NCBI GenBank assembly: GCA_018714125.1
Contig: DVNV01000068.1
Span: 1 to 36,460 of the forward strand
Direction: 5' to 3'
Length of the DNA: 36,460 bases
Origin: Candidatus Galloscillospira excrementipullorum
GTDB lineage: Bacteria; Bacillota; Clostridia; Oscillospirales; Feifaniaceae
In this document: piece after piece, positions 14,601-30,676 of the stretch
Layout of the letters: the number at the start of each line of letters is the position of its first letter
Position numbering within the stretch: the stretch's first letter is position 1
Position numbers and translations under genes: made by a program
The notes under the pieces: generated by a model
Databases searched by the model: none
The model's input: the letters and a program-made list of their open reading frames with translations, nothing else
Told to the model about the DNA's origin: nothing

Positions 14601-15267
14601 CAGCAAGCTCACCGTGACCCGGCTGAAAGACATGCTGCGCCCCGGACAGGACCTCGACACCCCTGCCGGGGAGCGGGTGAGCGCCTATCGTCTGCAGAAA
14701 ACGGGCTTTCGCAGGCCCTCCTTTGTGGCGCAGCAGCAGGAGGCCACTCCGGCCGAGGCCGGCACCGCCATGCACGAGCTGGTCCAGTTTGCCTACCTCA
14801 GGGGCCTTGCCGATGACCCCTGCACGGAAATCGACTATCTTGTGGAGCGCGGCTTCCTCAGCCAGAGGCAAAAGGGGCTCATCTCCATCGACATGGTAAA
14901 GACCTTTACACAGAGCGGCCTGTTTGCCCGCATGCTGGACGCAAAATGGCTCAGGCGAGAGCTCAAATTCACGGTGCTGGCGAGAGCGGGAGACCTGCTG
15001 CCCGGCCTGACCGGGGGACAGCAGGAGGAAAAGCTGCTGCTGCAGGGCGTGATTGACTGTATTTACGAGGGGGATGAGGGCATCGTGCTGGTTGACTACA
15101 AGACCGACCGCGTACGGCAGGCCCAGGTGCTGGTGCAGCGATATCAAAGCCAGCTGCAGCTCTATGCCCATGCCTATTTTCAAATGACGGGCCGCCGGGT
15201 GGCAAAGGCGGTGATTTACTCCCTTTCGCTGGGCTGTGAGGCCGAGGTGCCCTTGCACCGGCAGTAA
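11680..15267 (+). CDS. addA: ATP-dependent helicase/nuclease subunit AddA
   Basis: UvrD/RecB-type helicase and nuclease of 1195 residues, partner of AddB. Helicase motifs are easily read: Walker A AAAGSGKT (25-32), motif II DEYQDTN (401-407), GDAKQSIYLFRQAEP (motif III), IMSIHKSKGLEFP and a late RCLYVAMTRAKERL (motif VI). The C-terminal nuclease has GTAMHELVQFAY, GVIDCIYEG and VDYKTDR, with the catalytic Asp, Asp and Lys. All residues expected of an active enzyme are present, so the pair should be functional even though AddB lacks its own Walker A. Its ATG lies inside the end of addB with AGGGAGG upstream, so translation is coupled. Confidence 0.97.
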   Translation: MSEVKWTAEQRAAIEARGHTLLVSAAAGSGKTAVLVQRILERVLDEKNPCDVSDFLVVTFTRAAASEMREKMTKAIYEEMGRRPKNRRLERQLALMPSAAFETIDGFYYSLVREFAGKLGISPAARIAPEAELTLLYESVRDELLEEYYEKADSDFLQAVDYFSGSRDDRRFLEVVDQMRRLTSANPQREDFLKRQVKLYESPPPFGQTPYGRALLETAALRIEYAQKLLKEAMEDAAEEPVLKQKYLPALADYGQTLELLQKAVQGGDFDGAAGLLAAFAPPRFAPAAKADEAVKKQVSARRDLVKKQLVKLKEKCFFLTSEDACRDAVALSGALRGLCGFTLELERRFGAAKNERRILDFSDLSHLLYGLLVESVQDGRVTPTDTAREISKRYREILIDEYQDTNELQDFIFRAIAQQESNLFFVGDAKQSIYLFRQAEPRIFVEKRRTFAPLSSEGAACRQLTLSKNFRSRRTVVEFVNAVFSQVMSERLGGLSYEGEALSFGAPYDTAQDVPVELRLLTGEAQQEKPQEEQESFDEAENVARLVQELLSCALVTEKDGTRRRARKQDIVILLRSVKDEAPLLEKALTQHGVAVYSDTPEAFFSRPEVLLLMSLLECIDNPLQDVALAAVLRSPLYGLSSDELAQIRLGLEGQPFYDAVRAAADSLPAAALFLEQLGRWRELAKREPVEKLLYTVLEETGLMAVVASMPMGELRCENVRQLLSYAAEYESTGYRGLFRFNRYLEGLKRSGRDLPAARLSADSDMVRIMSIHKSKGLEFPIVIVCGLAKARNKTDLRQRFVLNGEVGVGLKLRDMQRLVEFDTLQRAGVVCRNEREALAEELRCLYVAMTRAKERLLLVVDTRKRGLSRLDPVLLDEGHIHPVQMLDASSLGEVLLLAMQATDAGRAVREHYGLPECKVCRHMPCQVYVERGDGFTPAQQESTPCAAPQAAQTPPIFEGWAPRPESGAERLPSKLTVTRLKDMLRPGQDLDTPAGERVSAYRLQKTGFRRPSFVAQQQEATPAEAGTAMHELVQFAYLRGLADDPCTEIDYLVERGFLSQRQKGLISIDMVKTFTQSGLFARMLDAKWLRRELKFTVLARAGDLLPGLTGGQQEEKLLLQGVIDCIYEGDEGIVLVDYKTDRVRQAQVLVQRYQSQLQLYAHAYFQMTGRRVAKAVIYSLSLGCEAEVPLHRQ

Positions 15268-15292
15268 GGCCCGGGGACGCGAAAGGAAGGGG

Positions 15293-15342
15293 GGCGCGCT
15301 GCGCAGGGCGGGACAGCCGGCGCGGCGCGCCTCCTTTGTTTT
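15293..15342 (+). terminator. Terminator after addA
   Basis: A 12-bp stem (15293-15304 with 15320-15331, one G-U pair) followed by the T-rich TCCTTTGTTTT. The U-tract is broken, so efficiency is uncertain. Confidence 0.6.
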
Positions 15343-15398
15343 GGGCAAAAAGAATTTCAAAGAAAAGCGCTCGACGGGAAAAAAGTTTTGAAACCGCC

Positions 15399-15428
15399 TT
15401 GTTCAAGCAGCGTAGGCCGTGATATACT
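15399..15428 (+). promoter_or_regulatory. Promoter for the hydroxyacid cluster
   Basis: TTGTTC (15399-15404) and TATACT (15423-15428) are 18 bases apart, and the -10 is extended by an upstream TG (15420-15421). It is the only plausible promoter in the 450-base gap before the oxidase gene. Confidence 0.55.
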
Positions 15429-15434
15429 TTTACG

Positions 15435-15716
15435 AAAAGCCTTCTTAAGTAAGGGGGGGCAGAAAAGAGGCAAAAGGGCTTTTGTGCAGGGGGATAAAAG
15501 GGAGGTTTCAGGCGTCTTTTCTTTTTGATGTGCCTGGCACAAGACGAGAAGCAAAGGGATGCACGGCCCTTGGAGGATGTCCCGGGAAATGGCAAAAAAG
15601 GAGCCTGGCCTGCCCCTGCGTGTGGAGTTTGACGCAGTTAGGCGCCCCAAAAAAAGAAACGGTGTTTTTTTAGAAGTTTTAACTTTTGAATTTTTGAAGA
15701 AAAGGAGCCGAGGAAC
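15435..15716 (+). other. Long untranslated leader with an operator-like palindrome
   Basis: About 280 bases between the promoter candidate and the ATG at 15717. It holds a perfect 13-base dyad, TGTGCC-T-GGCACA (15529-15541), and a run of eight T near 15666 beside an A-rich stretch, but no hairpin-plus-T attenuator I can align and no known riboswitch that I recognise. A regulator-binding site or a structured leader are both possible. Confidence 0.35.
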
Positions 15717-16763
15717 ATGAGTGAGAGCAGCAACCCCTTGACCTGGAAGGAAGTGTGCGACACTGCGCGCAAGGACATGCTGACCTGCAAGGTGTGCAGG
15801 GAGTGCAACGGAGAGGCCTGCCGGGGCGTGATGCCGGGGCCGGGCGGAAAGGGCACCGGCGTCGGCTTTGTGCGCAGCTATCAGAAGCTGCAGGAAATCA
15901 AGCTGCACCTGGACACCATCTACGAGTATGGTGACATTGACATGTCGTTTGTGCTTTTCGGGAAAAGGTTTGCAGCGCCCTTTTTTGTCGCGCCCCTGGC
16001 GGGAAGCCAGAACCAATACGGGCCCAAGTATCAGAGCGTGGAGTTTGGAAGAACGCTGCTGCGCTCGACCTCGCAGGAGGGGGGCCTGACCTTTCTGCCC
16101 GACGGCGGCGGCAAGATGTTTGAGGAGACCTGCTCGCTGTGCGAGGCCTTTCCCGGCAATGCCGTGCCCACCATCAAGCCCTGGCCGATCGACGTGATGC
16201 TGGAGAAATTCAAGCGCAGCCAGCAGGCGGGCGCATTTGCCGTGTGCACCGACCTTGACGGCGCCGGCCTGGCGCTCGTGCAGGGCGGCGAGGTGCCGGT
16301 GATGCCGCACACGGTCAAGGAGCTGGCAAAGCTGTGCGCATCGGTCACGCTGCCCGTGATTGTCAAGGGCGTGATGACGCCTGCCGGAGCCAAAAAGTGC
16401 CTGGAGGCGGGGGCCAGCGCCATCGTGGTGTCCAACCACGGCGGCCGCGTGCTCGAGCAGGCGCCCGCGCCGGTGGAGATGCTGCCCGCCATTGTCGACG
16501 CGGTGGGCGGGAAAATGGAAATCCTGATTGACGGGGCCATCCGCACCGGCGCCGACCTCTTCAAAATCCGTGGCCTGGGCGCCACGGCGGCGCTCATTGG
16601 CCGTCCGTATGCCGTGGCGGTCTATGGGGGCGACAGCGCCGGCGTGAGCTGCTATTCCAACAAGCTCAAATTTGAGCTGCGCGAGGCCATGATGATGACA
16701 GGCGCCCTCACGCTCGACGACATCACCAAAGACAAGCTGTTTTTGCCCGAATGGGCCAAATAA
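15717..16763 (+). CDS. FMN-dependent alpha-hydroxy-acid oxidase family protein
   Basis: A 348-residue TIM-barrel flavoprotein of the lactate oxidase/glycolate oxidase/IDI-2 superfamily. The FMN- and substrate-binding signature is present: VSNHGGRVLEQ (catalytic His and Arg), ILIDGAIRTGADLFK and IGRPYA. The N-terminus carries four close cysteines (C24-x2-C27-x2-C30-x4-C35), then PGPGGKGTG; this is characteristic of the clostridial version and absent from classical lactate oxidases, so a metal or redox role is possible. In strict anaerobes these proteins may act as dehydrogenases or isomerases rather than oxygen-using oxidases; that is inference. AAAGGAG lies nine bases before the ATG. The next gene starts 26 bases downstream. 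Confidence 0.85.
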   Translation: MSESSNPLTWKEVCDTARKDMLTCKVCRECNGEACRGVMPGPGGKGTGVGFVRSYQKLQEIKLHLDTIYEYGDIDMSFVLFGKRFAAPFFVAPLAGSQNQYGPKYQSVEFGRTLLRSTSQEGGLTFLPDGGGKMFEETCSLCEAFPGNAVPTIKPWPIDVMLEKFKRSQQAGAFAVCTDLDGAGLALVQGGEVPVMPHTVKELAKLCASVTLPVIVKGVMTPAGAKKCLEAGASAIVVSNHGGRVLEQAPAPVEMLPAIVDAVGGKMEILIDGAIRTGADLFKIRGLGATAALIGRPYAVAVYGGDSAGVSCYSNKLKFELREAMMMTGALTLDDITKDKLFLPEWAK

Positions 16764-16789
16764 CGACATTGGGAAAGGAAAAACGGGCA

Positions 16790-17752
16790 ATGAAGCTTTT
16801 TGTGGCCGACAATTACAACCTGACGCAGCAGGAACTCGACGAATTTCGCGCCATGGGATATGAAATCACGGTGGCAAGGCCCGACCAGGCGCCCAGCGAG
16901 GTCTGCGAAAACCATGAGGAGATGGAAGTGGCGCTGTGCGAGCACTTTTATCTGAAGGCGCACCTGGGGGAGATGCCCAATCTGCGCATGGTGCAAATGA
17001 CCGTTGCGGGGCTGGACCTCATGCCGGCCGTGGTTTTTGAGACCTATCCGAACACAAAATTCTACAGTGGCAGCGGCACCTATGGGGTGTCGCTGGCCGA
17101 GTGGAGCGTGGGTGAGACGCTCCAGATTCTGCGCCAGAGCGCCCTCTTTGAAGGCTACCAGAGAGAGCACCAGTGGAAGTGGGACGGCAGCGAGCAGACG
17201 GGTGAGCTCTGGGGGAAAACCGTTTTGGTGCTGGGCACCGGCGACATCGGCCGGGCCTGTGCCAGACGCTACAAGGCCTTTGACTGCACGGTCATCGGCC
17301 TCAATACCGACGGCAGGCCGGTGCAGGACTTTGACGGGAGCTGCACCCGCGACGACCTGCCCCATGTGCTGCCCCTGTGCGACGTGGTGTGCGTGGCCAT
17401 CCCCCGCACCGACAAGACGCTGCACATGCTCGACGCTGCGGCCATGTCCTGCATGAAGCAGGGGGCGGTGCTGGTGGTCAATTCGCGCGGGCGCATTGTC
17501 GACGAGGACAAGATGTGCCAGATGCTGGACTCGGGACACCTGCGCGGCGCCGCGCTCGACTGCTTTGACACCGAGCCCCTTCCTGCGGACTCCCCCCTGT
17601 GGGAGCAGAAAAACCTCATCATCTATCCCCACTGCGGCGGCGTGACCACGGGGCTGCGGGAGAGATACATTGAGCGGTACAAGAGCAACCTTGCGCTGTA
17701 TGCGCAGGGCAAGCAGCCGGTCGGGCTCATTCATTACGAGCGCGGCTATTGA
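16790..17752 (+). CDS. D-2-hydroxyacid dehydrogenase family protein (first paralogue)
   Basis: NAD(P)-dependent oxidoreductase of 320 residues. The Rossmann motif VLGTGDIGRACARRY sits in the middle, as in this family, and the catalytic residues follow in order: Arg in NSRGRIVDE (around 233), Glu in DTEPLP and His in PHCGG. The reaction would be reversible reduction of a 2-keto acid to a D-2-hydroxy acid. The protein begins MKLFVADNYNLT; an in-frame ATG at 16751 is rejected because it lies within the preceding gene and the GGAAAGGAA site is placed for 16790. It is paralogous to the next gene, sharing GRPV, QREH-W and SCMKQGAVLV. Confidence 0.88.
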   Translation: MKLFVADNYNLTQQELDEFRAMGYEITVARPDQAPSEVCENHEEMEVALCEHFYLKAHLGEMPNLRMVQMTVAGLDLMPAVVFETYPNTKFYSGSGTYGVSLAEWSVGETLQILRQSALFEGYQREHQWKWDGSEQTGELWGKTVLVLGTGDIGRACARRYKAFDCTVIGLNTDGRPVQDFDGSCTRDDLPHVLPLCDVVCVAIPRTDKTLHMLDAAAMSCMKQGAVLVVNSRGRIVDEDKMCQMLDSGHLRGAALDCFDTEPLPADSPLWEQKNLIIYPHCGGVTTGLRERYIERYKSNLALYAQGKQPVGLIHYERGY

Positions 17753-17770
17753 GCGGGGAGGGATAAGACG

Positions 17771-18748
17771 ATGAGCGAAACCAAAAAACTGCTGCTGACG
17801 GCGCTGCCTGTGACGCCGGAGCAAAAACAGGCCCTCGAGGCCCTGGGGTATGACATCGACATCTGCCCCGACAACCAGCCCGTGCCGGCCGACATTGCGG
17901 CAAACGCACAGGTCATTGTCTGCTTCCGGCTGTTCGGGAGCAACGCCCTGAGCGATTTTCCGAAGCTGCGCTATGTGCAGTCCGTGGCGACGGGGGTGGA
18001 GGCGCTGCCTCTGAAGGAGCTTGCCAAAACCGACATCCGGGTGGGAAAGGGCAAAAACCTCTACAGCATCCCCATGGCCGAGTGGACGGTCTGCCGCCTG
18101 CTCGAGCACTACAAGAAGAGCCGCCACTTTGCAGCGCTGCAGCGAGAGCACAAGTGGGAAAAGGCGAGCTGGGTTGACTACAAGAGCAATCTGGAGGAGC
18201 TTTTTGGCAAGAAGGTGGGCATCTGCGGCACGGGGGACATCGCCTTAGCGCTGTGCCGCCTGCTGCGCGGCTTTGAGGTCTCCTCCATTGTGGGCATGAA
18301 CAGCGACGGGCGCCCCGTGGAGGGCTACGACGCCTGCTTTGCGCCGCACCAGCTCTGCGACATGGTCAAAGACTGCGACATCGTGGTGTCGCTGGCCCCT
18401 CTGACGCCGCAGTCTGAGGGGATGTTTGACGAGAAGGTCATCTCCTGCATGAAGCAGGGGGCGGTGCTGGTCAGCCTGTCGCGCGGCAAGCTGGTGAACA
18501 CCGCCGCCGTGCGCCGGGGGCTGGAGAGCGGCCGCCTGGGCGCCCTGATTGCCGACGTGTTGGCCGAGGAGCCGCTCAAGCCCGACAATCCCCTGTGGGA
18601 TATGGAAAACGTCTACCTCACGCCCCACAACTCCTTTATCACCGACCAGAGGTATGTGCGCCTGTTTGAGCTTGTTTACCAGAACCTCAAGCACTATGCG
18701 CTGACCGGAAAGCCCCGGGACGAGGTGGATTTGTCCAAGGGATACTGA
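17771..18748 (+). CDS. D-2-hydroxyacid dehydrogenase family protein (second paralogue)
   Basis: A 325-residue protein of the same family as its upstream neighbour, 18 bases away. The NAD-binding loop reads GICGTGDIALALCRLL, with Ala in place of the Gly/Arg after the Ile. The catalytic Arg (LSRGKLVNT), Glu (AEEPLKPDNPLWD) and His (TPHNSF) are all present. The two proteins differ mainly in the N-terminal substrate domain, so they may act on different keto acids or act as a heterodimer; both ideas are inference. GGGAGGGAT provides the ribosome site. No terminator is obvious in the 210 bases that follow; the next gene has its own promoter. Confidence 0.88.
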   Translation: MSETKKLLLTALPVTPEQKQALEALGYDIDICPDNQPVPADIAANAQVIVCFRLFGSNALSDFPKLRYVQSVATGVEALPLKELAKTDIRVGKGKNLYSIPMAEWTVCRLLEHYKKSRHFAALQREHKWEKASWVDYKSNLEELFGKKVGICGTGDIALALCRLLRGFEVSSIVGMNSDGRPVEGYDACFAPHQLCDMVKDCDIVVSLAPLTPQSEGMFDEKVISCMKQGAVLVSLSRGKLVNTAAVRRGLESGRLGALIADVLAEEPLKPDNPLWDMENVYLTPHNSFITDQRYVRLFELVYQNLKHYALTGKPRDEVDLSKGY

Positions 18749-18865
18749 AAGAGGGTTCAAGCGGCGTTTTGAAGAGGGCGCCCGCGTCAATTTTGCAAAG
18801 GCGGCGTGCGGCAAAACAAATTGTCAAAAATCATTTGGATGAAGTCGCTGTTTTTTCTTCTCAGC

Positions 18866-18896
18866 TTCACAAAACGGTCATATTCCACGCTATAAT
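18866..18896 (+). promoter_or_regulatory. Promoter for the HtrA protease gene
   Basis: A perfect TATAAT (18891-18896) with TTCACA (18866-18871) 19 bases upstream. The transcription start would fall near 18903, i.e. just after an upstream in-frame ATG at 18902, which is one reason to place the protein start at 18959. Confidence 0.6.
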
Positions 18897-18958
18897 AGGG
18901 GATGAAAGAAAAGAAAGACCGCAGTCACAAAAAGACATCGGTGAAAGGAGAAGAAGCA

Positions 18959-20215
18959 ATGATGTTTTACAGCGACGAAGATTTGGATTTTTACGAGCAC
19001 GAAATTGATTTGACTGCTCTGAAAAAGAGGCAGGAAGAACAGGCCAAAAAGGAAGAGCAGGAGAGAGAACGTCTGCAGGAAGAGCAGCGCAAGAAAGAGG
19101 CGCGCCAGACCAGGCGGCGCACCTGGGCACGCCGCCTGACGGGGCTTGCCGCCGCCCTGGCGGTGTCGGTCACGTCGGTGGCAAGCTATGACTGGCTGGT
19201 GGCGAAGCCGCGCATTGAAGAGCTCGAAACCCAGCGCGACGAAATGCAGACCCAGCTCCAGGAGCTGTCGGGCAGCGCGTCGGTGTCGGGTGTCTCGAGT
19301 GTTGTCTATGGAAATGAGCTCACGGTGCCCCAGATTATCGCCAAGGCCAGGCCTTCGGTGGTGGCCATCAGCACGGTGAGCGGCTGGTCGACCGGAACCG
19401 GCTCCGGCGTGATTATGACGGAGGACGGAACCATCATGACCAACGCCCATGTGGTGAGCGGGGCGCAGTCCATCACGGTTCGCGTCATGGACGGCACCGA
19501 GTATGAGGCCACGCTGCTCGGCATGGACGAGAAGACCGACCTTGCCGTCATCAAGATTGACGCCACAGGCCTGACCCCGGCGGAGTTTGGCGACTCCTCT
19601 TCGATTGTGCAGGGCGAAATCGCCGTTGCCATCGGCAACCCCCTGGGCCTTGCCTTTGAGGGCTCGGTGACGCAGGGCATCATCTCGGCGGTCAGCCGCG
19701 AAATTGAGGTCGACGGACGCACCATGACCTATATCCAGACCGATGCGGCCATCAACCCCGGCAACTCGGGCGGCGCGCTGGTCAACGGTTCGGGCCAGGT
19801 CATCGGCATCAATTCGGTCAAGGTGTCCTCGAGCGACGTGGAGGGGCTGGGCTTTGCCATCCCCATCAGCGTGGCGCTGCCCATTGCCGAGCAGCTCACC
19901 ACCTACGGCTACGTCACGGGACGTCCCAGTATCGGTATCGGCGGCGAGGACGTGACCGACTATATGGTCTATTACTATCGCATTCCAAGAGGTGTGCTGG
20001 TCGGCCTTGTGACGCCCGATTCGGGCGCCGAGGCGGGCGGCGTTGAGGTGGGAGACGTCATCGTGGGCCTCAACGGCGTGTCGGTCTCGAGCATGGACGA
20101 GCTCACAAATGAGAAGGACAAATTCAGCCCCGGCGACACCGTGACGCTGACGGTCTACCGCAGCGGCGAGTATGTGGAGCTCGACGTGGTGCTGGGAGAA
20201 TCGACGGGAGGTTGA
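18959..20215 (+). CDS. HtrA/DegP-type trypsin-like serine protease with PDZ domain
   Basis: A 418-residue membrane-anchored S1C protease for quality control of proteins outside the membrane. Residues 1-55 are cytosolic and highly charged (KEEQEREREQ-like repeats, coiled-coil prone), a single membrane segment spans about 58-80, and the protease domain follows. The catalytic triad is complete: His164 (TNAHVVSG), Asp194 (KTDLAVIKID) and Ser270 (GNSGGALVNG). A C-terminal PDZ domain (about 325-415, GVEVGDVIVGLNG) recognises substrates. The start at 18959 is chosen for the AAGGAG site about nine bases upstream and the promoter position. The Crp/Fnr gene starts four bases after its stop, so the two are one operon. 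Confidence 0.93.
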   Translation: MMFYSDEDLDFYEHEIDLTALKKRQEEQAKKEEQERERLQEEQRKKEARQTRRRTWARRLTGLAAALAVSVTSVASYDWLVAKPRIEELETQRDEMQTQLQELSGSASVSGVSSVVYGNELTVPQIIAKARPSVVAISTVSGWSTGTGSGVIMTEDGTIMTNAHVVSGAQSITVRVMDGTEYEATLLGMDEKTDLAVIKIDATGLTPAEFGDSSSIVQGEIAVAIGNPLGLAFEGSVTQGIISAVSREIEVDGRTMTYIQTDAAINPGNSGGALVNGSGQVIGINSVKVSSSDVEGLGFAIPISVALPIAEQLTTYGYVTGRPSIGIGGEDVTDYMVYYYRIPRGVLVGLVTPDSGAEAGGVEVGDVIVGLNGVSVSSMDELTNEKDKFSPGDTVTLTVYRSGEYVELDVVLGESTGG

Positions 20216-20219
20216 CGGA

Positions 20220-20894
20220 TTGGAGGACAGCATTTGCTCCTGCCGGCTCTTCAAAGGGCTGGAGGGAGAGCAGCTCAGGGAGGCGCTGGCTTTTTTCGGG
20301 GCGCGTGAGCTGGCTTACAGAAAAGGGGAGCAGCTCATCCGCATCGGAGACGCCATGCCCAGCTTTGGCCTGGTGCTGGAGGGCGCCGTGTCGGTGTGCA
20401 GCACCGACATCAACGGCAACCGCATGATTATGGCCAGCGTGGGCAGGGGGGAGACCTTCGGGGAATCGCTCTCCTTCCTGCAGGTCCGCGAAAGCCCCAT
20501 CTATGCGCAGGCAGATTCCGACTGCCGGATTTTGTGGCTGTCCACCAGCCGCCTGCACGCCATGCAGGAGCAGCAGGAGCCTGAGGGCTGCGCCTTTACC
20601 GGACGCTTCATCGCCATGCTGGCCGAGCGCACCCTCTCCATGAACAACCGTATCCAGGTGCTGTCCAAAAAGAGCCTGCGCGAAAAGCTGATGACCTTTT
20701 TCACTCAAAGGGTGCAGGAGAGCGGAAGCTTTGCATTTGAAATTTCCATGGACCGAAGCGCCATGGCCGACTATCTGGGCGTCGACCGCAGCGCCCTGTC
20801 GCGCGAGCTCTCCCGCCTTCGGGACGAGGGAGCGCTGAAATTCCGTAAAAATCATTTTGAAATCGTGGATCGCAGGCTGCTTGATCAGCCGTGA
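20220..20894 (+). CDS. Crp/Fnr family transcriptional regulator
   Basis: A 224-residue regulator with an N-terminal cyclic-nucleotide-binding type beta-roll (GLVLEGAVSVCS, GETFGESLSF) and a C-terminal winged helix (MADYLGVDRSALSRELSRLRDEGAL). It carries a cysteine pair at the start (CSC) but no obvious four-cysteine Fe-S set as in FNR, so the signal is unknown. The TTG start at 20220 follows GGGAGG by eight bases; longer frames run into htrA. The neighbouring hydF and hydroxyacid genes make a redox-related signal attractive, but this is inference. Confidence 0.88.
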   Translation: MEDSICSCRLFKGLEGEQLREALAFFGARELAYRKGEQLIRIGDAMPSFGLVLEGAVSVCSTDINGNRMIMASVGRGETFGESLSFLQVRESPIYAQADSDCRILWLSTSRLHAMQEQQEPEGCAFTGRFIAMLAERTLSMNNRIQVLSKKSLREKLMTFFTQRVQESGSFAFEISMDRSAMADYLGVDRSALSRELSRLRDEGALKFRKNHFEIVDRRLLDQP

Positions 20895-20910
20895 GATGCC
20901 ATGTCAAAAC

Positions 20911-20945
20911 AAACTGCCGCACAGCATTTGCTCTGCGGCAGTTTT
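20911..20945 (+). terminator. Intrinsic terminator after the Crp/Fnr gene
   Basis: An 11-bp stem, AAACTGCCGCA (20911-20921) with TGCGGCAGTTT (20934-20944), and a short T-run. The same core, AACTGCCGCA, forms the spoIIID terminator at 31812-31860. Confidence 0.8.
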
Positions 20946-20946
20946 G

Positions 20947-20958
20947 TTGCAATTGCAA
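20947..20958. promoter_or_regulatory. Perfect 12-bp palindrome ahead of hydF
   Basis: TTGCAATTGCAA lies directly upstream of the hydF promoter -35. It is an operator candidate; it is shorter and more compact than the 14-bp FNR box (TTGAT-N4-ATCAA), so binding by the neighbouring Crp/Fnr protein is only a possibility. Confidence 0.4.
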
Positions 20959-20987
20959 TGGAGACAAGCCCTGTACTCTGCTACAAT
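20959..20987 (+). promoter_or_regulatory. hydF promoter candidate
   Basis: TGGAGA (20959-20964) and TACAAT (20982-20987), 17-base spacing. The start of hydF is about 75 bases downstream. Confidence 0.5.
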
Positions 20988-21061
20988 GGAAGCGGAACAA
21001 GAACGGCCGGATGCGGCGCAGGGCTTTTCGTGCGCCGTACCAGGAGAGGAGAGAAAAAAGC

Positions 21062-22258
21062 ATGAGTCTCAACAGCACACCCAGTGCAAACCGTTTGCAC
21101 ATCGGCATATTCGGAAAGAGAAATGCAGGAAAATCCTCGCTTATCAACGCTCTGACGGGTCAGAAGACGGCGCTGGTTTCCCCGGTGGCGGGAACCACGA
21201 CCGACCCTGTCTACAAGGCGATGGAGCTGCGCGGCGTGGGGCCGGTGGTCTTTATCGACACGGCGGGCCTTGACGACGAGGGCGAACTCGGGGCGCTGCG
21301 GGTGGAAAAGACGAGGCAGGCTGCGGACAAAACCGACATTGCGCTTTTGGTTTTGGATGCGGCGCCCGACGTGGAGCGGCAGTGGCTCACCCTTTTTCAG
21401 GAGAAAAAAATCCCTGTTTTAGCGGTGCTTGGCAAGGCCGATACGCTGCCCGACCCGCAGGCCACGGCAGCCGCCCTGCAGGAGCGCCTTGGGCTGCGGG
21501 TGCTGCCGGTCAGTGCGCAGGAGGGCGCCGGCATTGAGGCGCTGCGCGCCGCCATCGTCGAAAGCCTGCCGGCCGACTACGACGCCATCAGCATCACGGG
21601 AGATTTGGCAAACCGGGGGGATACCGTCCTGCTGGTCATGCCGCAGGACATTCAGGCGCCCAAGGGCCGTCTGATTCTGCCGCAGGTGCAGACCATCCGG
21701 GAGCTGCTCGACAAGGGGTGCACCGCCGTCTGCACCACGGCCGACCGCATCGACGAGGCGCTGGCCGCGCTGGCAAAGCCGCCCGAGCTCATCATCACCG
21801 ATTCACAGGTCTTCCCCCTGGTTGAGAAAAAGCGTCCCCCCGAGAGCCGCTTTACCTCCTTTTCCATTCTCATGGCGGCCTACAAGGGCGACATCGAACA
21901 ATTTGCCGCAGGGGCAAAGACCATCGGCGAGCTGACCGAGAGCTCCCGCGTGCTGATTGCCGAGGCCTGTACCCACGCCCCCATGGAGGAGGACATCGGC
22001 AGAGTCAAGATTCCCGCCCTGCTGCGCAAGAAGATTGGACAGGGCCTGACCATCGACTTCGTGCGCGGCGCCGACTTCCCGGACGATTTGTCGGGCTACG
22101 ACCTGGTGATTCACTGCGGGGCCTGCATGTTCAACCGCAGGCATGTGCTGTCGCGCCTGTCGCAGGCGCAGCGCCAGGGGGTGCCCATGTGCAATTACGG
22201 CATTGCCATCGCCTATCTGACCGGGATTTTGGACAAGGTGACGCTGCCTCGCCAGTGA
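21062..22258 (+). CDS. hydF: [FeFe]-hydrogenase H-cluster maturation GTPase HydF
   Basis: A 398-residue scaffold GTPase on which HydE and HydG products assemble the 2Fe subcluster that is handed to HydA. The G1 loop GKRNAGKSS (18-26), G3 DTAGL and a G4-like GKAD are visible. The C-terminal iron-sulfur ligands follow the family rule: C303-T-H305, then H351-C352-x2-C355, with 45 residues between the two histidines. The ATG at 21062 follows AGGAGAGGAG; a longer frame starts before the terminator and is rejected. hydE, hydG and the hydrogenase itself are not in this window, so the maturation genes are dispersed. The cell therefore probably makes an [FeFe]-hydrogenase. Confidence 0.95.
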   Translation: MSLNSTPSANRLHIGIFGKRNAGKSSLINALTGQKTALVSPVAGTTTDPVYKAMELRGVGPVVFIDTAGLDDEGELGALRVEKTRQAADKTDIALLVLDAAPDVERQWLTLFQEKKIPVLAVLGKADTLPDPQATAAALQERLGLRVLPVSAQEGAGIEALRAAIVESLPADYDAISITGDLANRGDTVLLVMPQDIQAPKGRLILPQVQTIRELLDKGCTAVCTTADRIDEALAALAKPPELIITDSQVFPLVEKKRPPESRFTSFSILMAAYKGDIEQFAAGAKTIGELTESSRVLIAEACTHAPMEEDIGRVKIPALLRKKIGQGLTIDFVRGADFPDDLSGYDLVIHCGACMFNRRHVLSRLSQAQRQGVPMCNYGIAIAYLTGILDKVTLPRQ

Positions 22259-22355
22259 AAAACAGGATGTTTTGATTTTTTCGTTTTGGAAAAATGACAC
22301 AGCACCGCACAAGACGGACAGGTGATTTTCCACAAAAAACACTTAAAAAACGCCC

Positions 22356-22391
22356 CGAGGGTCGGTAGCTTTTTCGCCGGCCCTCGATTTC
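22356..22391 (+). terminator. Terminator-like hairpin between hydF and pyc
   Basis: A 10-bp stem (22356-22365 with 22377-22386, one G-U pair) followed by ATTTCTT. The other strand also ends in a T-rich run, so it may work both ways. The rest of the 297-base gap is otherwise empty; I found no convincing promoter for pyc. Confidence 0.55.
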
Positions 22392-22555
22392 TTGGTGGTT
22401 TTGTCATACTGCGGCCCTGAAAAGAGGGAGAATTTATGTGGAACTTGATATGTAGAATTTAAGGGATGCCTGTGATATCCTGAGATATGACAGACAGCTC
22501 TAAACATCGTCAGGAGCATTTTCAACAAAGCAGTGCAATCAAAGGAGATGGTTTT

Positions 22556-25500
22556 TTGTCTGAGTATCGATTTAACAAAGTGATGGCGGCAAATCGCGGA
22601 GAGATTGCCATCCGCATTTTCCGTGCCTGTCATGACTTGGGCATCCGCACACTTGCCATTTACTCCAAGGAAGATACACTGGGACTGTTTCGTACAAAGG
22701 CGGACGAAGCCTATCTCATCGGAGAAAACAGGAGCCCTCTGGGGGCTTACCTGGCCATCGACGAGATCATTCCTCTTGCCAAGCGCCGCAAGGTCGAGGC
22801 CATTCATCCCGGCTACGGGTTCCTGTCGGAGAATGCCCAGTTTGCCAAGGCCTGCGAAGAAGCCGGGATCACCTTCATCGGGCCGCCTTCCAATGTTTTG
22901 GCCAAAATGGGCGACAAGCTTGAGGCCAAGAAAATCGCCGTGTCCTGCGGCGTGCCGGTCATTCCCGGCTCCAATGTTCCCCTGACCAGCGCCGAGGAGG
23001 CTCTGGAAAAGGCCAAAGAATTCGGATTCCCCATCATTTTGAAGGCGGCCTCGGGCGGCGGCGGACGCGGCATGCGTCTGTGCGAAAAGCCCGAGGACGT
23101 TGCGCCTGCCTTTGAGCTGGTGCGCAGCGAGGCCAAGAAGGCGTTTGGCAACGACGATATTTTCATTGAGAAGTATCTTGTTGAGCCCAAGCACATCGAG
23201 GTTCAGATTCTGGCCGACCAGTATGGCTGCATCCGCCATCTGGGCGAGCGCGACTGCTCGCTGCAGCGCCGCTACCAGAAGGTCGTGGAATTTGCCCCGG
23301 CCTGGAGCGTGCCGCAGGAGATTCGCGACAAGCTCTATGAAGACGCCGTGAAGATTGCAAAGGCCGTCAACTATGTCAACGCCGGTACGGTCGAGTTCCT
23401 GGTTGATAAGAACGGAAACCACTACTTCATTGAGATGAACCCCCGTATCCAGGTGGAGCACACCGTCACCGAGATGGTGACCGGAATCGACGTGGTGCGC
23501 GCCCAGATTCTCATTGCGGCCGGTGCGCCCCTGTCCCATCCCGAGATTGGCTTGGCCGAGCAGTCCGACCTGCACATCAACGGCTACGCCATCCAGTGCC
23601 GTGTCACCACCGAAGACCCGGCCAACAACTTCGCGCCCGACAACGGCAAAATCACGGCGTATTATTCGGGCGGCGGCCCCGGCGTCCGTCTTGACGGCGG
23701 CAACGTCACCACGGGTTCGGTCATTTCGCCCTATTACGACTCCCTGCTGGTCAAGGTGACCACCTGGGACCGCACCTTTGAGGCGGTGTGCCGCAAGGCG
23801 CTGCGCACCATCAACGAGGAGCATGTGCGCGGCGTCAAGACCAACATCCCCTTTGTCACCAACATTCTGCTGCACCCCACCTTCCTGGCGGGCAAGTGCC
23901 ACACCAAGTTTATCGACACCACGCCCGAGCTCTTCGATTTGGTTGACTCGCGCGACCGCGCCAACCGCATCCTCAAGTATATTGCCCTGCAGCAGGTGGC
24001 CGACCCCGATGCGCAGCGCAGCATCCACGAGCCGCCGCGCTACCCCGAGGCAACCCGTGAGATTACGCCCGAGATGGGCCTCAAGCACCTGCTTGACACC
24101 AAGGGCCCCGAGGCCTTCTCCAAGTGGGTGCTCGAGCAGAAGAAGCTGCTCATCACCGACACCACCATGAGAGACGCGCACCAGTCGCTGCTCTCCACCC
24201 GTATGCGCACCCGCGACATGGTCAAGGGCGCCGAGGGCATGGCCGACGTGCTCAACGACTGCTTCTCGCTGGAGATGTGGGGCGGCGCCACCTTTGACAC
24301 CGCCTACCGCTTCCTCTATGAGTCTCCCTGGGAGCGCCTGCGCCTGCTGCGTGAGAAGATTCCCAACATCCCCTTCCAGATGCTGCTGCGCGGCTCCAAC
24401 CTGGTGGGCTATGCCAGCTATCCCGACAACGTGGTGCGCGCCTTTGTGGCCGAATCGGCCCGCTGCGGCATCGACGTTTTCCGCGTGTTTGACTCGCTCA
24501 ACTGGATTCCCAGTATGGAAGTGGCCATGGACGAAGTCCTCAAGCAGGGAAAGCTGCTGGAGGCCACCGTCTGCTACACGGGCGACATCCTCGACCCCAC
24601 GCGTGACAAGTACACCCTCAAGTACTATGTCGACTTTGCCAAGGAGCTCGAGCGCCGCGGCGCCCACACCATCTGCATCAAGGACATGTCCGGCCTGCTC
24701 AAGCCCTATGCCGCCAGAGAGCTGGTCAAGGCGCTCAAGCAGGAGGTCGGCGTGCCCATTCACCTGCACAGCCACAACACCACCGACAACCAGATTGCCG
24801 CCTACCTGATGGCCGCCGAGGCCGGCGTGGATATTGTCGACTGCGCCATTGCGCCTCTGTCGAGCCTCACCAGCCAGCCCTCGCTCAACTCGCTTGTCGA
24901 GGCGCTGCGCGGACAGGAGCGCGACACCGGGCTTGACCCGCGCGGCCTGGAGCGTCTGGGCGACTACTGGGGCGACGTGCGTCTGCGCTACAAGAACTTT
25001 GACAACGGCCTTGTTTCGCCGCTCACCGAAATCTACCGCTATCAGATTCCGGGCGGCCAATACACCAACCTGCGTCCCCAGGTGGAGGCGCTGGGCCTTG
25101 GCGCCCGCTTTGACGAGGTGCGCGAGATGTTCCGCACCGTCAATGACATGCTGGGCGACATCGTGAAGGTCACGCCCTCCTCCAAGATGGTGGGAGACCT
25201 TGCCATCTTCATGGTGCAAAACGACCTCACGCCCGAGAACATCGTGGAAAAGGGCAAGTCGCTTGCCTTCCCCGACTCTGTGGTCAGCTACTTCAAGGGC
25301 ATGATGGGACAGCCCACCAACGGCTTCCCCGAGGATTTGCAGAAGGTCGTGCTCAAGGGCGAGGAGCCCATCACCTGCCGTCCGGGCGAGCTGCTCGACC
25401 CGGTGGACTGGGACGAGCTCGAGAAAAAGGTCAAGGAGTTCAGCCCCGATGCTTCGTGGCGTGACGTGATCTCCTATGCCATGTATCCCAAGGTGCTCGA

Positions 25501-25987
25501 GGACTTCTTTGCCAAGCGCAAGGAGTTTGGCTATCTCGTGCGCATGGGAAGCCACATCTTCTTCAACGGCATGGCCGTGGGCGAAACCACCAAGGTCAAC
25601 ATCGAAGACGGCAAGACGCTTGTCATCAAGTATCTGGGCCTTGGCGACCGCAATGAAGACGGCACCCGCACCGTGCAGTTTGAGCTCAACGGCATGCGCC
25701 GTGAAATCGACGTTCCCGACCCGCAGGCGGCGGACACCGGCAAGAAGGTGGTCATGGCCGACCTGAACGACAAGGGCCAGGTGGGTGCTTCGATTCCGGG
25801 CATGGTGTCCAAAATCAGCGTCAAGAAGGGCGAGACCGTCAAGGAGAACCAGGTTCTGGCCACCATCGAGGCCATGAAGATGGAGACCAGCGTGGTCGCC
25901 CGTATGGACGGCACCGTCGAAGAGGTGCTCATCGAGCCCGGCCGCTCGGTCAAGGCAGGCGAGCTGCTCTTCACCATCAAGGCGTAA
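22556..25987 (+). CDS. pyc: Pyruvate carboxylase, single-chain, biotin-dependent
   Basis: An enzyme of 1143 residues that makes oxaloacetate from pyruvate, bicarbonate and ATP, feeding the TCA branch, succinate formation or gluconeogenesis. Domains in order: biotin carboxylase (about 1-450, with the ATP-grasp segment KAASGGGGRGM and EMNPRIQVEHTVTE), carboxyltransferase (about 530-800, starting ITDTTMRDAHQS near residue 532), and a C-terminal biotinyl domain with AMKM, where Lys1108 is the biotin site 35 residues from the end. The length is normal for the single-chain form. The start is TTG at 22556 (MSEYRFNKV), eight bases after AAAGGAG; an upstream in-frame ATG at 22487 has no RBS and would add 23 residues that do not match the family start. 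Confidence 0.97.
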   Translation: MSEYRFNKVMAANRGEIAIRIFRACHDLGIRTLAIYSKEDTLGLFRTKADEAYLIGENRSPLGAYLAIDEIIPLAKRRKVEAIHPGYGFLSENAQFAKACEEAGITFIGPPSNVLAKMGDKLEAKKIAVSCGVPVIPGSNVPLTSAEEALEKAKEFGFPIILKAASGGGGRGMRLCEKPEDVAPAFELVRSEAKKAFGNDDIFIEKYLVEPKHIEVQILADQYGCIRHLGERDCSLQRRYQKVVEFAPAWSVPQEIRDKLYEDAVKIAKAVNYVNAGTVEFLVDKNGNHYFIEMNPRIQVEHTVTEMVTGIDVVRAQILIAAGAPLSHPEIGLAEQSDLHINGYAIQCRVTTEDPANNFAPDNGKITAYYSGGGPGVRLDGGNVTTGSVISPYYDSLLVKVTTWDRTFEAVCRKALRTINEEHVRGVKTNIPFVTNILLHPTFLAGKCHTKFIDTTPELFDLVDSRDRANRILKYIALQQVADPDAQRSIHEPPRYPEATREITPEMGLKHLLDTKGPEAFSKWVLEQKKLLITDTTMRDAHQSLLSTRMRTRDMVKGAEGMADVLNDCFSLEMWGGATFDTAYRFLYESPWERLRLLREKIPNIPFQMLLRGSNLVGYASYPDNVVRAFVAESARCGIDVFRVFDSLNWIPSMEVAMDEVLKQGKLLEATVCYTGDILDPTRDKYTLKYYVDFAKELERRGAHTICIKDMSGLLKPYAARELVKALKQEVGVPIHLHSHNTTDNQIAAYLMAAEAGVDIVDCAIAPLSSLTSQPSLNSLVEALRGQERDTGLDPRGLERLGDYWGDVRLRYKNFDNGLVSPLTEIYRYQIPGGQYTNLRPQVEALGLGARFDEVREMFRTVNDMLGDIVKVTPSSKMVGDLAIFMVQNDLTPENIVEKGKSLAFPDSVVSYFKGMMGQPTNGFPEDLQKVVLKGEEPITCRPGELLDPVDWDELEKKVKEFSPDASWRDVISYAMYPKVLEDFFAKRKEFGYLVRMGSHIFFNGMAVGETTKVNIEDGKTLVIKYLGLGDRNEDGTRTVQFELNGMRREIDVPDPQAADTGKKVVMADLNDKGQVGASIPGMVSKISVKKGETVKENQVLATIEAMKMETSVVARMDGTVEEVLIEPGRSVKAGELLFTIKA

Positions 25988-26016
25988 CCCCCCGATATCC
26001 CAGGCTGCATGTTTGC

Positions 26017-26060
26017 AAAGGGAGCTTTTCTCAAGGATTTGGGAAAAGCTCCCTTTTCTT
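26017..26060 (+). terminator. Intrinsic terminator after pyc
   Basis: A 14-bp stem, AAGGGAGCTTTTC with GAAAAGCTCCCTT, with a loop of about 12 bases and a following T-run. The remaining 26061-26279 stretch is GC-rich and I see no gene in it. Confidence 0.85.
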
Positions 26061-26279
26061 GCGCGCCGTGAAAAAGGGCTCTCCCGGCTGCAGGGGAAAG
26101 CCCTAAAGCACAAAAAGAAGGCGGCAGGGGTCTTTTTGCCGGCCCTGCTTCGCAGAGGCGCCGGAGCAGCAGGGGAATTTCAAAAAAGGGCAGGGGCGTG
26201 CGGCGCAGCCCTGCGGCAGGGAAGGCGCGCCGCTTTTGCAGAGGGAGGCCAAAGCAAAAAGGGAAAAAAGGTTTTTCTC

Positions 26280-26308
26280 TGGAAAGCGGGCAAAAAATGT
26301 GGTATGAT
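26280..26308 (+). promoter_or_regulatory. Promoter candidate for the ybaK-to-pepQ operon
   Basis: TGGAAA (26280-26285) and TATGAT (26303-26308), 17 bases apart, upstream of the ybaK gene by about 80 bases. Confidence 0.5.
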
Positions 26309-26388
26309 AAATTCCTTAAGGGGGAGAAAACGAGAAGGGGGCCGGCGCCCCGTTTCCCCCCGGGGATTTGAGAAGGGAGAAGAGCGCA

Positions 26389-26883
26389 GTGGCGGGAAAG
26401 AAGGATGGGCGCACACCCCCAAAAACCAACGCCGTACGCCTGCTCGAGCAGGCGAAGGTCCCCTTTGAGCAGCATTTTTACGGGGAGACGGGGGCCGTGA
26501 GCGGGATGGAGGTTGCGCAGGCGCTGGGCCAGGACCCCCGGCAGGTGCTCAAAACACTTGTCACGCAGGGCCGGTCGGGGGAGCACTATGTGTTTGTCAT
26601 CCCTGCCTGCGGGGAGTTGGATTTGAAGAAGGCGGCAAAAGCCGTGGGGGAGAAGTCGATTGAGATGCTGCGGGCAAAGGAGCTGCTGCCACTCACCGGC
26701 TATGTCCACGGGGGATGCTCTCCCGTCGGCATGAAAAAACGCTTTGTCACGGTGATTGATGAAAGCGCCGGGGCCTTTGACAGGGTCATGGTCAACGGCG
26801 GAGCCATCGGGTGCCAGGTGGAGCTGCGCCTTGAGGATTTGGCGCGGCTTGTGCCTTTTAAGACGGCAGACGTCGTGGTCTAG
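26389..26883 (+). CDS. ybaK: Cys-tRNA(Pro)/Cys-tRNA(Cys) deacylase, YbaK family
   Basis: A 164-residue trans-editing factor of the YbaK/ProX family, which hydrolyses Cys from tRNA(Pro) mischarged by prolyl-tRNA synthetase. Conserved elements are KTNAVRLLEQ at the start, VLKTLV (with the conserved Lys), GYVHGGCSPVGMKK (catalytic Gly-Ser-Pro region) and the C-terminal NGGAIGCQVEL. It is about the family's normal length. GTG at 26389 is chosen because the AAGGGAG site lies eight bases upstream; a TTG further up (26368) would swallow that site. The gene is followed by yqeG after 82 bases. Confidence 0.88.
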   Translation: MAGKKDGRTPPKTNAVRLLEQAKVPFEQHFYGETGAVSGMEVAQALGQDPRQVLKTLVTQGRSGEHYVFVIPACGELDLKKAAKAVGEKSIEMLRAKELLPLTGYVHGGCSPVGMKKRFVTVIDESAGAFDRVMVNGGAIGCQVELRLEDLARLVPFKTADVVV

Positions 26884-26965
26884 CGCCTTTTTTGGCAGGG
26901 TCTGTTTTTGCCTAAGCTTGTGCGCAAGGCCGCCTTTTGCGGTATTTCAACAACAAGGAGGACAC

Positions 26966-27478
26966 ATGGGTAAGGGGCTGTTTCCCGACTGCTATTTTCA
27001 TAGCATTTACGATATCACCCCGGAGTTTCTGAAGGGCAAGGGCATCCGGGGCGTGATTTTGGATATTGACAACACACTGGTCTTTTACGGGGTCTACCGC
27101 CCCACGGCACGCAACACCGCCTGGCTCAACGGCCTGACGCAGGCCGGCCTTGCGGTGGCCTTTGTCAGCAACGGGCGCCAGCAGAGGGTGGAGGAGTACA
27201 ACCGGGATTTCGGGTTTTACTTTTCCTTTCGCTCGGGCAAGCCCAAAAAGGCGGGATTTTTGAAAGCGGCGCAGGCAATGAACCTTGCACCGCGTCAGAT
27301 TGCCGTGGTTGGGGACCAGATATACACCGACATTCTGGGCGGCAACCGCGTGGGCATGTTCACCTGTCTGGTGCAGCCCATCAAGCCGGAGCCGTGGCTG
27401 CGCTTTCGGCTCAAGCGGGCGCTGGAGCGCCCCGTTGTCAGAAGACTGAAGCACACGAAGGAGGAGGAGACGCCATGA
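26966..27478 (+). CDS. yqeG: YqeG family HAD IIIA-type phosphatase
   Basis: A 170-residue haloacid-dehalogenase-type phosphatase. Motif I is DIDNTL (the nucleophile Asp), motif II lies in AFVSNGRQQ, the conserved Lys in GKPKKAGF, and motif III in VGDQIYTDILGGNR. This matches the YqeG group found next to ribosome-biogenesis or shikimate genes in Firmicutes; the physiological substrate is not settled. CAAGGAGG sits before the ATG at 26966; an open frame upstream is out of the family pattern. The stop overlaps the next ATG (ATGA), so the genes are translationally coupled. Confidence 0.92.
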   Translation: MGKGLFPDCYFHSIYDITPEFLKGKGIRGVILDIDNTLVFYGVYRPTARNTAWLNGLTQAGLAVAFVSNGRQQRVEEYNRDFGFYFSFRSGKPKKAGFLKAAQAMNLAPRQIAVVGDQIYTDILGGNRVGMFTCLVQPIKPEPWLRFRLKRALERPVVRRLKHTKEEETP

Positions 27479-29405: not shown

Positions 29406-29434
29406 AAAAAGTCGGGGTTTTGGCAAGATTTCAG

Positions 29435-29463
29435 TTGCATGGCGCTTCGATTTAGGGTACAAT
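29435..29463 (+). promoter_or_regulatory. efp promoter
   Basis: TTGCAT (29435-29440) and TACAAT (29458-29463) at exactly 17 bases. The leader to the efp ATG is about 50 bases. It is one of the best promoter matches in the window. Confidence 0.75.
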
Positions 29464-29518
29464 ATCTGGAGTGAGTGTAAGCATTGCCTCAACAAAAACA
29501 AGGAGGTTCCTGATAACC

Positions 29519-30076: not shown

Positions 30077-30149
30077 CCGGCGGCGCTTCGCGCAACGAAG
30101 GCCCGTGGGGATATGTCCCTGCGGGAATGACAGGAAAGGAGAAGAAAGC

Positions 30150-30578: not shown

Positions 30579-30605
30579 GAAAAAGATATTCATAGCACGG
30601 CAAAT

Positions 30606-30641
30606 GGCCTGCACGGAAGTTTCGCCGTGCAGGCCTTTTTT
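30606..30641 (+). terminator. Intrinsic terminator after the CD1247-type gene
   Basis: A perfect 11-bp stem (GGCCTGCACGG with CCGTGCAGGCC) and six T. It ends the efp transcription unit and lies only 35 bases ahead of the nucleoside hydrolase gene. Confidence 0.92.
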
Positions 30642-30676
30642 CAAATCCGGGAGAATCGGGAAAGGAGAGAGCTCGA

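Follow-up and report, generated by a model that had tools for sequence, protein, structure and literature searches.

Enzymes of the FMN_dh family (PF01070) act on L-2-hydroxy acids, while those of the PF02826 family act mostly on D-2-hydroxy acids. In glycolate oxidase, we take the catalytic residues to be K230, H254, R257 and D157, and the substrate-binding tyrosines to be Y24 and Y129. In flavocytochrome b2, the FMN_dh barrel is joined to a heme domain, an extra redox centre that receives the electrons of FMN. MftD, related to the flavoenzyme described below, acts on an amino acid derivative or peptide-like product.

Two dehydrogenases, SlcC and ComC, have the combined effect of a racemase on sulfolactate, according to the available parts of two papers (PMC9594981, PMC6303947). 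In the portion of PMC6303947 at hand, SlcC is placed in the 2-hydroxyacid dehydrogenase family, in or near the SERA clade, and most subfamilies of this family are described as 2-keto acid reductases; ComC belongs to another, NADH/NADPH-dependent family, as stated in the accessible part of PMC5695019.

Layout of the three-gene locus

The window, a stretch of 36,460 nucleotides from an uncultured Clostridia bacterium, contains three genes in tandem on the + strand, encoding an FMN_dh-family flavoprotein of 348 aa (15717..16763; hereafter, the flavoenzyme), D-2-hydroxyacid dehydrogenase 1 of 320 aa (16790..17752, ATG to stop) and D-2-hydroxyacid dehydrogenase 2 of 325 aa (17771..18748). The original prediction, which was made from the sequence of this region, had described an FMN hydroxyacid oxidase-like protein with a four-cysteine N-terminus, coupled to two different D-2-hydroxyacid dehydrogenases. 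The coupling is close, with gaps of 26 bp between the flavoenzyme and dehydrogenase 1 and 18 bp between the two dehydrogenases, and a purine-rich, ribosome-binding-like sequence precedes the ATG of each gene; the three may be co-transcribed. The span then given for the cluster, 15399–18748, holds all three genes, but its first 318 bp are non-coding upstream sequence. For dehydrogenase 1, the automatic list of open reading frames gives an ATG at 16751; a search of relatives based on the 16790 start gave alignments that begin at the first residue of that version.

A non-coding gap of 449 bp (15268..15716, + strand) separates the trio from the upstream gene, presumably addA-like, and is the presumed leader or promoter region. 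No sigma-70-like site was matched in this leader, and no Rfam family reached its gathering score there; a sub-threshold RNA match (E 0.054, to a plant-virus element) was regarded as chance.

The trio is real and not a product of chance, because its dN/dS is 0.16–0.26 against the G002 relative (and below 0.5 in every comparison made) and its gene order is kept in all four sampled genomes of the genus, two contig breaks among them.

The flavoenzyme, its cysteines and the two dehydrogenases

Pfam matches bore out the predicted gene identities. The flavoenzyme matched PF01070 with 192.6 bits (gathering cut-off, 24.9), and its AF2 model (pLDDT 92.1) has the barrel fold of the FMN_dh family, superposing on mandelate oxidase 5zzp with a VIA Z of 37.8 and 2.6 A over 315 residues. 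Residues D181, K217, H241 and R244 are invariant in all 44 sequences of alignment A2, which comprises the window's flavoenzyme and 43 of the 65 loci found in a wide scan. K217, H241 and R244 align with LldD residues, and D181 corresponds to D157 of glycolate oxidase by hand alignment, the hhalign alignment to LldD being unusable in the middle of the protein, so that the equivalents of Y129 and D157 were taken from secondary structure and hand alignment.

Both substrate tyrosines of glycolate oxidase are absent from the flavoenzyme. Its C-R-G-V-M-P-G-P-G-G motif stands opposite the Y24 segment and, by the order of secondary structure, its strand V-P-T-I-K-P-W stands opposite the Y129 strand, the residue replacing Y129 being assigned by hand alignment. 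No Tyr occurs in these facing stretches, either in the flavoenzyme or in the 44-sequence consensus. Within the wider sequence set, one protein (L041) has Gln in place of Lys154. Because both tyrosines are missing, the name 'hydroxyacid oxidase' is not safe for this protein, and for the same reason it is uncertain that the flavoenzyme acts on a simple L-2-hydroxy acid. In the available part of PMC8491902, ten FMN_dh proteins were inactive, and eight of them were missing one or more of seven conserved residues. The NCBIfam scores were all low: the best match was MftD (115.7 bits; cut-off, 470.85), and L-lactate dehydrogenase LldD (103.5 bits; cut-off, 550) and L-lactate oxidase (89.7 bits; cut-off, 645.5) were also under threshold.

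The predicted four-cysteine N-terminus is also real. It reads C-x2-C-x2-C-x4-C (C24, C27, C30 and C35; 15786..15821, + strand, codons 24–35), and the four residues are possible ligands of [4Fe-4S] or Zn. The four cysteines were present with exact spacing in 63 of the 63 sequences having the N-terminus, including all 25 of these that were obtained without the cysteine search pattern; L033 and L087, which lack the N-terminus, are left out of this count, and L088 was dropped for an internal stop. They were also found in all six further genomes of the order that were opened (see below). The carriers belong to Bacillota and Spirochaetota, with one Calditrichota, one Eggerthellaceae and one unassigned genome, and these lineages are mainly anaerobic. 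In the model, the four fixed cysteines appear to lie close to the active site, in a loop that is among its least certain regions (AF2 block means, 55–78). The pattern suggests that they probably hold an iron-sulfur cluster, and we think that the flavoenzyme is an Fe-S-carrying FMN dehydrogenase and not an oxidase. No description of a four-cysteine FMN_dh subfamily was found among the papers listed by searches of an open-licence library, and this widespread group is seemingly unstudied.

The two dehydrogenases share 33% identity, in agreement with their description as different. Dehydrogenase 1 matched PF02826 with 166.3 bits, and dehydrogenase 2 matched PF02826 with 142.3 bits and PF00389 with 35.7 bits. 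The catalytic Arg-Glu-His triad is intact in both; in dehydrogenase 1, it consists of R233, E262 and H281, which are invariant in 9/9 aligned rows, two of these rows being near-identical G003 copies. The best NCBIfam match of both was NF041369 (DDH; 160.2 and 137.1 bits, far under the cut-off of 400). The beta-B loop reads G-L-N-T-D-G-R in dehydrogenase 1 and G-M-N-S-D-G-R in dehydrogenase 2, and the NAD-selecting Asp is absent from both. In the part of PMC6303947 available, a missing NAD-type Asp is linked to NADPH preference in the related DDH subfamily. The beta-B loop thus suggests that both enzymes are probably of NADP(H) type, a reading that is weak because the loop Arg of this genus is not conserved in dehydrogenase 1 of G004.

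Conservation and gene neighbourhoods

The trio was not found outside the genus in any genome searched. In G004, from a sister genus, the reductase pair is retained and the flavoenzyme lies on a separate contig; the trio stays together in the sampled genomes of the genus and is apart in this relative. Among 394 genomes of the order, which were searched for the flavoenzyme and dehydrogenase 1, five had both the flavoenzyme and a dehydrogenase-1 orthologue (at least 55% identity), 20 had the flavoenzyme only, and none had the orthologue without the flavoenzyme. Separation of the genes in relatives, named beforehand as evidence against the prediction, was seen in part, 20 of the 25 flavoenzyme-bearing genomes having no such orthologue. 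The search for dehydrogenase 2 covered 59 genomes. All five genomes with the reductase pair, G004 included, also have the flavoenzyme. This co-occurrence is probably the outcome of one evolutionary event. The six opened genomes mentioned above were the best by score of the 20 without a dehydrogenase-1 orthologue, with G029 excluded, and were read with 1.5 kb flanks.

In the wide scan, 61 of 65 loci had no dehydrogenase-like match in the available flank, one of the 61 (L034) being a cut contig end from this genus; of the 59 loci that lie outside the family and have a mapped gene, 45 have at least 1.5 kb on both sides. Two relatives, L025 and L033, come from goat gut according to their record titles. 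The Eubacteriaceae form the sister group in the flavoenzyme tree, from which L033, L034 and L087 are omitted. In all four of their loci, an MFS transporter gene lies immediately before a flavoenzyme copy; in two of the four, this copy adjoins a LUD-domain protein. Neighbour groups were built for the 65 loci with a purpose-made, crude gene caller. The widest shared group was ABC-type ATPases, identified by reading (10/65 loci), followed by a sodium symporter (9/65), one member of which was identified as SNF; SNF matches occurred in 10 loci, eight of them within one tree clade. These shared neighbours were considered as a clue to the substrate and were not informative.

Candidate reactions and comparison with known systems

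Our preferred reading, held tentatively and at somewhat less than even confidence, is that the genus has an operon in which an Fe-S FMN dehydrogenase and a pair of D-reductases bring about L-to-D inversion of a 2-hydroxy acid. The operon would unite two older pieces, the flavoenzyme and the reductase pair, at the level of the genus. The flavoenzyme would be an anaerobe-type FMN-dependent dehydrogenase of a 2-hydroxyacid or similar alpha-substituted acid, with an iron-sulfur cluster on the N-terminal cysteines near the mouth of the barrel, through which the electrons of FMN would reach a protein carrier instead of O2. His241 would take the alpha-proton from an L-2-hydroxy acid, two electrons would pass from FMN through the Fe-S cluster to the acceptor, and the released 2-oxo acid would be reduced to the D-2-hydroxy acid by one or both dehydrogenases. 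If the enzymes share a substrate and run in this direction, the net result would be inversion together with a redox link between the carrier and NADPH. Such a route was part of the original prediction. The opposite stereochemistry expected of the two families agrees with it, as does the lack of a lactate-racemase match (PF09861, 0/1) in the same draft genome; the missing substrate tyrosines of the flavoenzyme speak against it. An (R)-2-hydroxyacyl-CoA dehydratase (PF06050), a candidate alternative or sink, likewise gave no match in this draft genome (0/1). Passage of a 2-oxo acid to the reductases is possible, as suggested by gene order.

A substantial though smaller share of our confidence goes to co-transcription with no relay, in which the flavoenzyme and the reductases handle different acids and no single substrate is inverted, for example by removing several 2-oxo acids (phenylpyruvate and branched-chain keto acids are candidates) or using them to balance redox. 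The reductase pair of G004, with no adjacent flavoenzyme, and the other gene contexts of the flavoenzyme elsewhere are in line with this, as is the nearest PDB sequence to dehydrogenase 2, phenylpyruvate reductase 8hpg (131.4 bits); close enzyme–substrate fits are, in the available text of PMC6303947, rather rare in the family. The constant gene order in the four sampled genomes of the genus and the presence of the flavoenzyme in all five genomes with the pair argue against it.

It is unlikely that the flavoenzyme oxidizes some other alpha-substituted substrate, such as an amino acid derivative or peptide-like product, or has a non-redox role like that of type 2 IPP isomerase. The loss of both tyrosines, the rank of MftD as best NCBIfam match and the fusion of two relatives (L082 and L084) to an L-amino-acid-ligase-like ATP-grasp domain point that way, but the catalytic His/Arg/Lys/Asp are intact, the scores for MftD and IPP isomerase are far under their cut-offs, and the fused forms are remote (33–34% identity). 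Moreover, the 2-oxo acid reductases in this genus and the LUD domain in Eubacteriaceae point to 2-hydroxy acids. Very improbable is a chance neighbourhood, in which the flavoenzyme came to lie before a reductase operon unrelated to it in the ancestor of the genus and has stayed there since: a single event would suffice, and G000 and G003 are not independent because the 16-kb tract bearing the trio is unusually alike between them, but the more diverged G001 and G002 (57–77% protein identity) keep the same order and dN/dS is below 0.5 throughout the comparisons made.

The cysteine-bearing subfamily is of more interest than the inversion, which would not be a new mechanism because inversion by two dehydrogenases is known from SlcC/ComC. 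FMN_dh proteins of anaerobes are at risk of being named 'oxidase' although O2 is an unlikely acceptor, and an invariant four-cysteine subfamily could reveal how a glycolate-oxidase fold came to serve electron transfer in anaerobes; the substrates of the reductases offer a handle for finding what the flavoenzyme oxidizes. The wider proposal, of a widespread and so far undescribed class of anaerobic FMN + [4Fe-4S] dehydrogenases, derived from the glycolate-oxidase fold by exchange of the N-terminal tyrosine segment for a loop that binds the cluster, which here inverts its substrate with two NADPH D-reductases, is rather unlikely as a whole; if true, the four-cysteine class would be the anaerobe's counterpart of flavocytochrome b2.

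The flavoenzyme resembles glycolate oxidase, mandelate oxidase, LldD and lactate oxidase in its barrel fold and its Lys/His/Arg/Asp, at 18–28% identity among the structure alignments listed. Unlike these PF01070 enzymes, it has no counterparts of Y24 and Y129, carries the four-cysteine N-terminus where they have the Y24 segment and falls below every NCBIfam cut-off listed. If the cysteines bind an Fe-S cluster, it would resemble flavocytochrome b2 in joining an FMN_dh barrel to an extra redox centre, heme domain in one and cysteines in the other, with different acceptors. Both dehydrogenases are like Haloferax-type DDH/GHRA in their best match, triad and lack of the NAD-selecting Asp, but they match only partly the NADPH motif of GHRA, given as [ST]R[ST]X[RK] in the available part of PMC6303947. 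Like SlcC/ComC, the trio would combine opposite stereospecificities, here expected ones, through a 2-oxo acid and with no racemase. On the parts of the sources available, SlcC shares its family with both trio reductases (PMC6303947), whereas its partner is the NADH/NADPH-dependent ComC (PMC5695019) and that of the trio reductases is an FMN protein; the single substrate of SlcC/ComC was proposed from studied enzymes (cited in PMC9594981), and that of the trio is suggested by gene order.

Gene organization and conservation of the trio

Three intact genes, of established family, residues and conservation, lie on the forward strand: the flavoenzyme gene (15717–16763; Pfam FMN_dh), the dehydrogenase 1 gene (16790–17752) and the dehydrogenase 2 gene (17771–18748; both Pfam 2-Hacid_dh_C). 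The intergenic gaps are 26 bp and then 18 bp, while 449 bp separate the trio from the upstream gene (end 15267), presumably addA-like, and 153 bp lie between it and the next ORF (18902); the three genes are probably co-transcribed. Within the source draft genome (1.6 Mb, 99 contigs, completeness rated 97.6%; the window is contig C54), the flavoenzyme has a single match, and the trio dehydrogenases account for two of three 2-Hacid_dh_C matches above the cut-off. The one LUD-domain match is on a contig other than that of the trio. By reading, the downstream genes are htrA-like (18902–20215), a HydF-like GTPase (20891–22258) and pyruvate carboxylase (22487–25987); nucleotide comparison indicated that G001:C158 (L020, 190–1765), of the same genus, lacks the htrA-like gene between dehydrogenase 2 and the regulator gene (window 20172).

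The original prediction, drawn from gene order, was that the trio might turn an L- into a D-2-hydroxy acid via the keto acid, without a racemase. The gene order itself was retained in all four sampled genomes of the genus (G000–G003), with the G001 flavoenzyme split across two contig ends (its start on C364, the remainder on C158 with both dehydrogenases) and the G002 dehydrogenase 2 gene running off the contig end. It did not extend to the sister genus G004, where the dehydrogenase pair lies in the same order on contig C87 (55% and 54% identity) and the flavoenzyme (58%) on contig C43, adjoining a GntR/TrkA-C regulator. The other three family genomes (G005–G007, one 75% complete) gave no trio member at G004-like levels; in G006, part of the flavoenzyme was matched at 28%. 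Among 394 order genomes, the flavoenzyme was detected in 25 at E ≤ 1e-40, and dehydrogenase 1 at ≥55% identity in five, all in the window's family and all five with the flavoenzyme. At E ≤ 1e-45, dehydrogenase 1 was detected in 16 order genomes, the 11 outside these five matching at 30–40%.

A pattern-based scan of 84,980 species genomes yielded 65 flavoenzyme loci, and a dehydrogenase directly behind the flavoenzyme was present in three (L024, L025 and L033), all of the window's genus. The G004 locus, L026, had only a 28% dehydrogenase match, about 8 kb away, and 61 loci had none in the flank examined, including L034, the cut other half of the L033 gene; of the loci from outside the family, 59 had a mapped gene, with at least 1.5 kb of flank downstream in 50 of them and on both sides in 45. 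The dehydrogenase pair can thus stand with no flavoenzyme next to it, and the flavoenzyme with no pair, which makes the trio a local arrangement. Within the family, co-occurrence is suggestive, and may reflect one event.

The dN/dS ratios for the flavoenzyme, dehydrogenase 1 and dehydrogenase 2 were 0.17, 0.16 and 0.26 (partial gene) against G002, and 0.13, 0.03 and 0.06 against G003; those of the two dehydrogenases against G001 were 0.47 and 0.35. The ratios of the more distant pairs, with dS of 0.8–1.2, are rough. As every ratio was below 1, the genes look functional. Identity between the window and its near relative G003 was 77–89% upstream of the trio (15240–15680; per-kilobase means) and 91–100% over the 16 kb from 15678 to 32007, starting just before the trio, with no alignment past 32007 in the stretch compared. 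The pattern resembles that of a tract gained by recombination or transfer, or else of a mixed assembly.

Active site and four-cysteine motif of the flavoenzyme

The AlphaFold2 model of the flavoenzyme, built from a 44-sequence alignment (mean pLDDT 92.1, pTM 0.92), was grouped by Foldseek and VIA-align with mandelate oxidase, glycolate oxidase and relatives (Z 37.8, 2.6 Å, 315 residues). Asp181, Lys217, His241 and Arg244 are invariant in 44/44 sequences, the last three aligning with LldD residues, and the enzyme would be L-specific. Glycolate oxidase binds its substrate by tyrosines Y24 and Y129, neither of which has a counterpart in the flavoenzyme. Opposite Y24, sequence alignments place the tail of the cysteine motif, C-R-G-V-M-P-G-P-G-G. 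The strand that faces Y129 is V-P-T-I-K-P-W, whose Lys is found in 44/44 sequences and in 63 of the 64 wider-set rows having a residue there (Gln in L041). According to PMC8491902 (section 8), of seven conserved residues one or more was missing from 8 of 10 inactive FMN_dh-domain proteins; that the flavoenzyme acts on common L-2-hydroxy acids should therefore not be assumed.

The motif C-x2-C-x2-C-x4-C was present in all 63 sequences with an N-terminus, the window's own counted. Because one of the two search patterns held two of the motif's cysteines, we checked for bias: 25 of the 63 were without the cysteine-bearing pattern, and all 25 had the motif, as did 6/6 inspected flavoenzymes of other order genomes found by whole-protein search. 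On the tree, the carriers belong to Bacillota and Spirochaetota, with one from Calditrichota, one from Eggerthellaceae and one genome not assigned to a phylum. Within the order, three FMN_dh proteins that are more distant (L007, L008 and L009) showed no motif as far as their open frames reach; they carry S-H-H-H-G where others have S-N-H-G-G. The flavoenzyme gene frame is broken in Anaeromassilibacillus senegalensis (L088:10001–11294) and in one order genome (G094:C12).

The motif occupies the place of the Y24 segment, near the active site; block means for model residues 21–50 were 78, 55 and 71. Based on this position and the invariance of the motif, we prefer the reading that the four cysteines would hold an Fe–S cluster accepting electrons from FMN, zinc binding or a structural role being possible alternatives.

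Probable cofactor and direction of the two dehydrogenases

Dehydrogenases 1 and 2 share 33% identity, and the top NCBIfam match of both is NF041369 (Haloferax D-2-hydroxyacid dehydrogenase), well under its cut-off. Among solved structures, 3hg7 and 5mh5 are closest in sequence to dehydrogenase 1, and phenylpyruvate reductase 8hpg to dehydrogenase 2. Across nine aligned rows, including two near-identical G003 copies, Arg233, Glu262 and His281 (dehydrogenase 1 numbering) are invariant. So is the Asn at the NAD-type Asp position in the loop behind the second beta strand, G-L-N-T-D-G-R in dehydrogenase 1 and G-M-N-S-D-G-R in dehydrogenase 2; the last loop Arg is absent from G004 dehydrogenase 1. 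PMC6303947 states that a missing Asp goes with NADPH preference in the DDH subfamily, and that 2-keto acid reductases are found in most subfamilies. From these statements and the Asp-less loop, we infer that both enzymes would use NADP(H) and act in the reductive direction.

Possible functions and comparison with known systems

An inversion relay with an Fe–S flavoenzyme, in which the three enzymes would share a substrate, is quite possible, and we hold it tentatively. Somewhat more doubtful is that the flavoenzyme and the dehydrogenases act on separate substrates. The Eubacteriaceae loci L027–L030 form the sister group of the window's flavoenzyme group on the tree, and all four have an MFS transporter gene directly 5' of a flavoenzyme gene. 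In L027 this precedes the first of two flavoenzyme copies; the genes in between encode a LUD-domain protein and, by reading, a regulator-like one. In L030 a LUD-domain protein comes after the flavoenzyme, plus a partial second copy. The L028 transporter matched several organic-acid carrier models, all below cut-off. This gene context would fit catabolism of a 2-hydroxy acid. A third LUD match was detected in L063, about 5 kb from the flavoenzyme.

Different chemistry of the flavoenzyme, which keeps the invariant residues but lacks both tyrosines, is unlikely. In L082:8318–10579 and L084:146–2419, one of them from a spirochaete, an L-amino-acid-ligase-like ATP-grasp enzyme (PF18603, PF13535) precedes the four-cysteine FMN_dh domain in a single fused protein, suggesting that the subfamily may be functionally non-uniform. 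A chance neighbourhood appears very improbable beside the order kept in all four sampled genomes of the genus.

We found no description of the four-cysteine subfamily in the open-licence literature searched. PMC8914356, in which lactate-use loci of human intestinal bacteria were sought with PF01070 among other models, contained no discussion of it in the portion available. Inversion by two dehydrogenases has already been published for sulfolactate (Denger and Cook 2010, as cited in PMC9594981, PMC6303947 and PMC5695019), and PMC6303947 places SlcC of that pair within the 2-hydroxyacid dehydrogenase family, in the SERA clade or close to it. The trio consists of known families, arranged in this manner at the genus level.
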